A stretch of 64,000 nt of DNA. It comes from Halorientalis persicus. GTDB lineage: Archaea; Halobacteriota; Halobacteria; Halobacteriales; Haloarculaceae. The stretch covers positions 1 to 64,000 of the forward strand of contig NZ_FOCX01000008.1 in assembly GCF_900110215.1 (NCBI RefSeq), written 5' to 3'. Below the pieces are notes generated by a model that was not told where the DNA came from, did no database searches, and saw nothing but the letters and a program-made list of their open reading frames with translations. The first letter of the stretch is position 1; the number at the start of each line of letters is the position of its first letter. A program made the translations under genes and the position numbers. Below are positions 14,091-34,220 of the stretch, piece after piece.

Positions 14091-14176
14091 ACGAGGAGGA
14101 TGATCGGCCGACCACTTAACCGGTGATCCAGTTCTCGATCACTGGAAACGAAAAACGGTCGCGTGCGGTCCAGCAT

Positions 14177-14366
14177 CCGCCGAGCGCGCCGTGCGCGCGA
14201 GGCGGTTCACCGTCAGAGCAAAACTCTGACGAGCCTTCGTTCGTTCCCAGCGGTCACTCACGAAGACACCGGACGCGAGGCGAAGCCGAGCGTCCGGATG
14301 GTTTTTATACTAAATTTTTGCGAGCGGGGGTGCCCGCAGGGCACCCTCCGAAGTAAAAATTTAGTA
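14177..14366. repeat. Run of four stem-loops, candidate dispersed structured element
   Basis: Four inverted repeats follow one another in gene-free DNA. (1) CCGCC 14177-14181 / GGCGG 14201-14205 with an inner CGCGC/GCGCG stem. (2) CGTCAGAG 14211-14218 / CTCTGACG 14224-14231. (3) CCGGACGC 14269-14276 / GCGTCCGG 14290-14297. (4) TACTAAATTTTT 14308-14319 / AAAAATTTAGTA 14355-14366, enclosing a perfect inner stem GGGTGCCC 14328-14335 / GGGCACCC 14339-14346. The last arm includes the final codon and stop of the SDR gene. Chance ORFs here read as low-complexity basic protein and were not called. It could be a mobile miniature element, a strong terminator or a structured RNA. Confidence 0.65.
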
Positions 14367-15143
14367 GGTGAACAGGTCGACGCCGCCGGTGACGCCCATG
14401 ACCTGGCCGGTGATGTACTCGGCCTGTTCCGAGGACAGATAGGCGACGAGGTTGGAGACGTCCTCTTCGCTGCCGAGCTTGTCCATCGGCGTGGCGCGGG
14501 CGATGTCGGCCCAGTGTTCGTTGACGTTCTCCAGCTGGTCGTGGGGCAGTTCGGCGAGGTCGCCGACGACGATGGTCGGCGCGAGGATGTTGGAGGTGAC
14601 GCCCTCGGGTGCGCCCTCCAGCGCCAGCGTCTTGCCGAAGCCGATGAGGCCGGCCTTCGTGGTGGAGTAGGAGATCTGGCCGTAGCCGCCTTCCCAGCCG
14701 GCGAGGGAAGACATCGTGATGATGCGACCCCAACCGCGGTCACACATATTGGGGAAGATCTCCTTCGTGATGTTGTAGGTGCCCGTCAGGTTGACCGACA
14801 GGTCACGGTCCCAGATGTCGGGGTCGAGCCCGCCGACGGTCCCCACGGCGTCCACGAGGCCAGCGTTGTTCACGAGGATGTCGACGCCGCCGGTCGCGTC
14901 CTGCAGGTCGTCGACGACCTCGCTGACCTCCTCGCGGTCGGTCAGGTCACACTCGATGGCGATGGCCTCGCCGTCGTGGTCCGCGTCGTTGATGTCGTCT
15001 GCCACGTCCTGAGCGCCGTCCTCGTCCACGTCGAGAACGACGACTTCCGCCCCTTCCTGAGCGAGTGTCTTGCAGTCTTCTTCACCGATGCGGCCCGCAC
15101 CCCCCGTCACGAGGGCCGTCTTGTCGTCGAGTCCGAAATCCAT
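14361..15143 (-). CDS. SDR-family oxidoreductase (NAD-type, 3-oxoacyl reductase-like)
   Basis: A 260-residue classical short-chain dehydrogenase. The nucleotide motif TGGAGRIG is at 13-20, NNAG at 93-96 and the catalytic Ser147, Tyr160 and Lys164 are in place. After the second strand comes VVVLDVDED; the Asp at that position usually selects NAD(H) over NADP(H). Relatives act on 3-hydroxyacyl-CoA or other secondary alcohols. A GGAGGAAC tract and a TGTTAACAAAG stretch lie 20-45 bases upstream of the ATG. The stop codon is embedded in the arm of the large hairpin 14308-14366, which probably ends the transcript. Confidence 0.9.
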   Translation of the reverse strand: MDFGLDDKTALVTGGAGRIGEEDCKTLAQEGAEVVVLDVDEDGAQDVADDINDADHDGEAIAIECDLTDREEVSEVVDDLQDATGGVDILVNNAGLVDAVGTVGGLDPDIWDRDLSVNLTGTYNITKEIFPNMCDRGWGRIITMSSLAGWEGGYGQISYSTTKAGLIGFGKTLALEGAPEGVTSNILAPTIVVGDLAELPHDQLENVNEHWADIARATPMDKLGSEEDVSNLVAYLSSEQAEYITGQVMGVTGGVDLFTY

Positions 15144-33404: not shown

Positions 33405-34097
33405 ATGACCGACGTCAAAACACACGTTCGGACAGCGGTGCGGAACGTCAGACGACGGGTCGACCGCCGAAAACCACCGGCAGACGAGGAGTATCTGCTG
33501 TTCAGTCTCGGGGTCGCCGACTACATCAGTCTCGTGGCGCTGTTTTTCGGCTGGACGGCGACGCTGCTGGTGTTGACCGGCGAGCCCAACTGGGCGCTGG
33601 TCTCCATGCTGGTCGCGTTCGGCTTCGACAAACTCGACGGGTTCTACGCCCGCGAGTTCGGCGAACCGACGACGATGGGGCGACACATCGACGCGTTCAT
33701 CGACGTGTTCACGTACCTGGTTCCGGCGGTCGCGCTCTATCACGTCGTTCTCTCTCCCGCCACGGTCCTCAGCGTCCTCGTCGGCTTCACCGTCCTCGCG
33801 TTCGGCCTCCTCCGACTGGTTCGGTTCGCCAGTGAGGGGCTCGAAGACGACGACGGGACGAGCTACTACCGGGGGCTCACCGTCGTCCACCTCAACGTCC
33901 TGATGGTCGGCAACTACTTCCTCGCCACCTTCGTCGACCAGTGGAACGGGTGGCTGGCGGCCGCGACGGTCCTGCTGACCGCTCCGCTGATGATCTCGAA
34001 CTACCGGAGCTACAAGACCGTCGGCAGTCACACCGTCGCGGGACTGCTCGCGCTCGCCGTCGTCGGGCTCGCGCTGGTCCTCGAATTCGGCATCTAA
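33405..34097 (+). CDS. CDP-alcohol phosphatidyltransferase family protein
   Basis: A 230-residue integral membrane enzyme with about six helices. The family signature is perfect: D75, D78, G79, A82, R83, G92, D96 and D100 in the spacing DxxDGxxARx8GxxxDxxxD. It would transfer a phosphatidyl (here archaetidyl) group from a CDP-activated lipid to an alcohol such as serine, glycerol phosphate or inositol phosphate. The acceptor cannot be read from sequence. It stands alone; the 100 bases upstream have several AT-rich boxes (33341-33349, 33361-33367, 33380-33388) from which the promoter cannot be chosen by eye. Confidence 0.93.
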   Translation: MTDVKTHVRTAVRNVRRRVDRRKPPADEEYLLFSLGVADYISLVALFFGWTATLLVLTGEPNWALVSMLVAFGFDKLDGFYAREFGEPTTMGRHIDAFIDVFTYLVPAVALYHVVLSPATVLSVLVGFTVLAFGLLRLVRFASEGLEDDDGTSYYRGLTVVHLNVLMVGNYFLATFVDQWNGWLAAATVLLTAPLMISNYRSYKTVGSHTVAGLLALAVVGLALVLEFGI

Positions 34098-34220
34098 TCT
34101 CAGTCGTCGCGCTCCGCCCGCCCCCGCTCGCCCTGTGCAGTCCCACCTTTTTCTCCTCGGGTTCGCTCCCCTCCGGTCGCGAACCCCTCGTGCAAAAACG
34201 TGGGCGAAAAAACCGGTCGC

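Follow-up and report, generated by a model that had tools for sequence, protein, structure and literature searches.

A mosaic of dispersed hairpin modules at a gene end of Halorientalis persicus, containing a putatively mobile 59-bp double hairpin

The hairpin block at the SDR gene end

The window, i.e. the whole stretch of 64,000 nucleotides analyzed, contains an SDR gene whose stop codon falls within a 197-base block of consecutive hairpins. Orthologs of the gene in Halorientalis (H. pallida, H. regularis and a Halorientalis MAG) are 91–95% identical. The gene and the modules into which the block may be divided are located as follows.

14174–14208, plus strand: module M1, AGCATCCG...CGGTTC, with an outer 5-bp and an inner 6-bp hairpin
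14209–14267, plus strand: module M2M3, a putatively mobile double hairpin of 59 bp, ACCG-hp1-CGAGC-hp2-GAC, between GGTTC and ACCGG
14211–14231 and 14235–14265, plus strand: hp1 and hp2, respectively, within the 59-bp double hairpin
14269–14297, plus strand: module M4, hairpin CCGGACGCGAGG...CCGAGCGTCCGG, with a T5 run then at 14302–14306
14300–14370, minus strand: module M5, palindromic, TACTAAATTTTT...AAAAATTTAGTA, with an inner 8-bp stem and T-runs on both strands
14361–15143, minus strand: SDR gene, open reading frame of 260 aa, with its TAA stop (14361–14363) inside M5
34137–34213, minus strand: second M5 copy of the window, between convergent genes (43.3 bits with R2, the model of M5)

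A preliminary description of the window had reported four stem-loops in the block, and all four are found in place, at 14177–14205, 14211–14231, 14269–14297 and 14308–14366, the last with an inner 8-bp stem closed by a GCA loop. A fifth one, where 14235–14240 pair with 14260–14265, had been overlooked, so that five hairpins are contained in 197 bases. The overlap of the last stem arm with the final Tyr codon (14364–14366) and the stop codon of the SDR gene, also reported there, agrees with the coordinates. The folding check it had proposed gave a clear result: as a single strand, the block is predicted to fold at -103.9 kcal/mol, versus -70.8 ± 4.5 in 200 dinucleotide shuffles, none of which scored as well (z = -7.4). 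The search for copies in the same and related genomes, proposed on the same occasion, was positive too. With a 231-bp query, 21 matches, mostly partial, were found in the window's own genome (G000, a single fragmented assembly of 4.87 Mb in 121 contigs); seven further genomes of Halorientalis have 8–15 block matches apiece, and, altogether, 32 of the 58 genomes searched contain block matches. The block is more than a chance arrangement, because, besides the folding score, the same sequence recurs in its own and in other genomes.

The block is a mosaic of dispersed haloarchaeal hairpin modules, not one element: M1, M2M3, M4 and M5 combine differently from copy to copy. M4, whose arms read CCGGACGC..GCGTCCGG across copies, adjoins M5 in many of them. 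M1 is identical at the SDR locus of two further Halorientalis (L079, L080), where the adjoining DNA then differs, and is also dispersed elsewhere, as indicated by matches to query positions about 23–63 in the 58-genome search. The window and other Halorientalis (L078–L080) have the array in common as far as M1 reaches; the neighbour genes beyond it are different. In this comparison, position 14174 is a putative rearrangement breakpoint, located at a hairpin.

Covariance models from Rfam, run on ten loci, returned no family for the block, the only hits there being the SRP RNA and a sub-threshold CRISPR repeat, both elsewhere in those loci. No match for the 197-bp block was found in plasmid and phage collections, nor for the exact hp1 pattern in the viral contigs scanned, and open-access literature text yielded no description of the double-hairpin element. 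At two other loci of the same genome (L014, G000:C76:79400–80200; L018, G000:C62:99150–99900) the 3' end of the neighbour gene, about 70–100 bp, is present on both sides of the array in partly diverged form, as though the gene end had been copied or brought along by the insertion.

Module M5 and gene ends

M5 has the general form GTTTTTATACTAAATTTTTGCGAG-hairpin-CGAAGTAAAAATTTAGT. Its model R2 gives 67 hits in the window's own genome, corresponding to about 55 distinct places, two of them in the window. On the minus strand, the copy at the SDR end (80.8 bits) starts at the stop codon and reads TAAATTTTTAC; behind this stop codon, the nearest T-run lies at 14351–14359. More generally, when M5 is entered in the sense of the gene, the stop codon is directly followed by a T-run (TTTTTAC), and T-runs are present on the opposite strand as well. 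The genes flanking the second copy of the window end at 34097 (plus) and 34221 (minus).

Thirty M5 copies were read together with 1.5 kb on each side. In 21 of them the stop codon of an opposite-strand gene falls between -20 and +12 bases from the M5 edge, a figure to be taken as an estimate, since genes were picked by codon-position G+C. Among the remaining copies, one is found behind the SRP RNA (L149) and one beside a tRNA gene (L152). In five copies, including that at the SDR end, the TAA is provided by the CTAAAT of the module itself.

Intergenic termination sites of Haloferax volcanii are T stretches ending at C (PMC7237163). M5 resembles such terminators in having a T-run, then C, directly behind the stop codon; it differs from them in that it is a palindrome, conserved and dispersed, and carries T-runs on either strand. 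M5 looks like an archaeal gene-end or terminator module. Because of the T-runs, after the stop codon and on both strands, of the copy between convergent genes and of the Haloferax signal, it probably terminates transcription from both sides. At one gene end, represented by loci L010 and L023 (G003:C1:1770314), the M5 of the latter has shrunk to ACTAAATTTAGT, which is what would remain if the hairpin between the AAATTT repeats had been deleted.

The double hairpin in gene ends, tRNA genes and protein genes

The same SDR end is found in a MAG (L080), with M5, M4 and M1 in equal order and without the 59-bp double hairpin. There the sequence reads GGTTCACCGGACG, versus GGTTC-(ACCGTCAGAGC...GAAGAC)-ACCGGACG in the window: a clean difference of 59 bp, at 14209–14267, with no target duplication. 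M5 is kept at this gene end in both L078 and L080. The SDR locus, taken alone, may reflect a loss in L080 instead of a gain in the window.

Other copies were collected by R1, a covariance model built from 19 double-hairpin copies, and their census rests on such model searches. The window element scores 83 bits; 26 matches are found in G000 and 4–26 in each of the other seven Halorientalis; R1 hits below about 40 bits may belong to other hairpin families. The double hairpin, common in Haloarculaceae, is present in 57 of 116 genomes of the family (E <= 1e-8). Copies are also carried by three genomes from another family of the same order, and none was detected outside these two families in a 120-genome sample of the phylum (E <= 1e-7). 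Family members are 46–61 bp long. In the inserted copies, the form ACCG-hp1-CGAGC-hp2-GAC follows a C, mostly without target duplication, and linkers and ends (CCGTCAGAGC, GAGCCC, GAGGAC) are shared by unrelated loci and different genera. A duplication of CACC(G) at the target was considered as a general rule and discarded: it is not repeated in L044 (ACC versus ACT) and is contradicted by argH (ACC versus GTG) and by a T-run at C64:106609 (ACC versus CAC).

Six tRNA genes, from four genera, are interrupted by the double hairpin: tRNA-Thr(TGT) in G000 and G002, and tRNA-Arg(TCG) in G002, G013, G014 and G133. The site is always AGAGC|AC, where AGAGC is the end of the D-arm and AC the start of the next tRNA segment. 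ARAGORN finds no tRNA when the insert is present, and the correct tRNA in all six cases once it is omitted; for tRNA-Arg of G002, a second double hairpin, 63 bp long and located in the T-loop, was omitted too. The tRNA arrays of G002 and G000 are orthologous, and an intact tRNA-Arg(TCG) in the latter represents the empty site for both inserts; the comparison, in which the main insert is a 50-bp copy, reveals no target duplication. In the 63-bp double hairpin (L111, region of G002:C4:112330), the first stem arm is formed by the sequence of the T-loop. In one dense array of G000 (L097, C22:16000–23000) 26 tRNA genes were detected, and several of these contain or adjoin hairpin elements. At the insert junctions, no equivalent cut allows a bulge-helix-bulge with a full 4-bp central helix and flanking helices to be drawn; because of this, a normal archaeal tRNA intron was ruled unlikely.

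Protein genes are also affected. In argH of G000, G001, G003 and G007 a 51-bp in-frame insert (TVGASSDEPPVADAPGD) separates GD from VVRRDRF; GAC, the usual end of the element, is present on both sides of it. The insert is missing from argH of G002, G004, G005 and G006, and from all readable N-termini of outgroup ArgH; on this distribution, half of the eight Halorientalis and all those outgroups lacking it, it must be regarded as gained. At least eight further G000 copies, in both orientations, fall within open frames whose codon bias is strong. The length is a multiple of three in 10 of the 10 copies taken as coding, versus 3 of the 15 others, a contrast which partly follows from how coding copies were selected, and which fits the survival of in-frame insertions only. 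In argH of G001 (L143), two different hairpin inserts are found in tandem, and the end of argG in G000 (L138) seems to have a C-terminus with yet another hairpin insert. Three histidine kinase genes of G000 (L103, L105 and L110, on contigs C64, C63 and C25) feature tandem in-frame hairpin units right after NAVEHG, with the DAVEHG codons repeated in each unit.

Stem changes were counted in two alignments. In the first, built without reference to structure, 42 double and 2 single cells were found; in the second, where 100 distinct copies were fitted to the covariance model, 311 changes are compensatory and 18 one-sided. Stem pair cells, 1854 in total, include 19 G-T and 28 A-C, so that G-U is limited to about 1%. 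RNA families usually pass through G-U pairs and keep many of them. Because covariation in the stems is almost purely Watson-Crick, the palindrome seems to matter as DNA, or on both strands.

Interpretation, rival readings and known elements

On the evidence of the empty sites, the double hairpin is an inserted element. The preliminary description had offered three readings of the block. That of a miniature mobile element applies to the central 59 bp, for which empty sites are available at the SDR end, in a tRNA gene and in argH, and does not extend to the whole block; that of a terminator suits the last hairpin, M5, with its T-runs and its start at stop codons in 21 of 30 copies, and not the rest. 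As to a non-coding RNA, compensatory changes do exist, but almost without G-U and with no Rfam family: a conserved RNA is not favoured.

For the locus as a whole, we regard as probable an array of gene-end modules joined by a 59-bp, non-autonomous, palindromic mobile element. The array would be assembled from dispersed hairpin modules, with M5 closing the SDR gene and probably terminating transcription from both sides, and the double hairpin would have entered its CACCGG joint without target duplication. Members of the 46–61-bp family would insert precisely in gene ends, in tRNA genes and, where their length is a multiple of three, in protein genes. An enzyme acting in trans would recognize the element in its folded, single-stranded form, which could arise on the lagging strand, for instance, and would move it; recognition as folded DNA is, from the strict Watson-Crick covariation, most likely.

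Mobile DNA of about 55 bp, landing cleanly in tRNA genes and reading frames, would be a source of new protein segments, as well as of broken or altered tRNAs, and would explain many intergenic hairpins and short polar protein inserts of haloarchaea. In gene-end arrays, where double hairpins are joined to T-run palindromes, it would be tied to transcript ends. The argH, tRNA-Arg and SDR-end loci provide natural before/after pairs for finding the enzyme.

A narrower form of this explanation is a real possibility, although below an even chance: the double hairpin would be a relic of an IS605-type transposon, moved by a Y1 (IS200-type) transposase, comparable to the terminal-only forms of PATEs. 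These palindrome-associated transposable elements of Haloquadratum walsbyi are described (PMC3119063) as transposase-free, multi-copy elements with near-terminal palindromes, neither terminal inverted repeats nor target duplication, and terminal-only forms of 52 bp as the shortest, which may move. The present family shares the haloarchaeal context, the size and this anatomy: two different hairpins lie near its ends, terminal inverted repeats are absent, and no target duplication is found at the SDR-end and tRNA-Arg empty sites. On the other hand, its two palindromes are unlike in sequence, and the likeness is one of anatomy; moreover, a fixed tRNA position and in-frame protein copies are not among the PATE features in the passages compared. 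Of the 8 Halorientalis, 7 carry Y1 genes, but copies do not track them (R1 copies versus Y1 matches: 26 and 0 in G005, 11 and 8 in G007, 4 and 2 in G006), and the Y1 transposase was discarded as mobilizer on this ground. A more far-reaching proposal, which we put forward tentatively and consider rather unlikely, is that of an undescribed archaeal family of 46–61 bp, served by non-Y1 machinery reading folded DNA, targeted to the joint between D-arm and anticodon-arm of tRNAs and entering proteins in frame, and the tRNAs that it interrupts may be either tolerated or made whole again.

Part of hp1 is, in some copies, shared with the target (histidine kinases and one tRNA T-loop), which simple insertion does not explain. 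This sharing, the nearly perfect Watson-Crick stems and the gene ends duplicated around two arrays would be accounted for if hairpins, instead of being transposed, were made on site through fold-back copying or template switching; such a process, however, cannot create the conserved linkers and ends at unrelated loci of different genera, and we hold it for unlikely. Still less credit is given to the whole block being only a multi-hairpin terminator of the SDR gene, inherited vertically: M5 does start at stop codons, has T-runs on both strands, is retained in L078 and L080 and recurs between convergent genes, but the 59-bp part is missing in the sister species, its family occurs within tRNA and coding sequences, where a terminator would be senseless, and, seen from the stop codon, all non-M5 hairpins lie beyond the first T-run. 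A structured RNA or tRNA intron selected for its RNA fold is very improbable, since strong covariation and a tRNA position that is the same in four genera are outweighed by the scarcity of G-U, the lack of a complete bulge-helix-bulge at any equivalent cut in all tRNA inserts, the absence of Rfam matches at ten loci and the in-frame copies in mRNAs in both orientations.

Returning to a mobile double hairpin, its inserted-copy form also resembles what is moved by IS200/IS605-type single-strand transposition. A classical MITE is ruled out by the absence of terminal inverted repeats and target duplication. With REP/BIME sequences and REPINs (PMC3733652, PMC3116915) the modules share dispersed hairpins and mosaics between genes, but not a fixed GTAG/CGTC tag in all copies, and many copies are intragenic. 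Depending on the copy, hp1 starts with CGTC, CGAA, CGAG or CGGG; the family thus departs from extragenic, tagged palindromes of 20–40 bp, and no RAYT link was found for it.

In-frame palindromic elements are best known from Rickettsia. These bacterial elements (Ogata 2000, 2002, reviewed in PMC10969869) are about 150 bp long, and are short palindromic mobile DNA found in frame in unrelated protein genes. The present family is archaeal and shorter, 46–61 bp; like them, it is found in frame in unrelated protein genes, namely argH and the at least eight further open frames.
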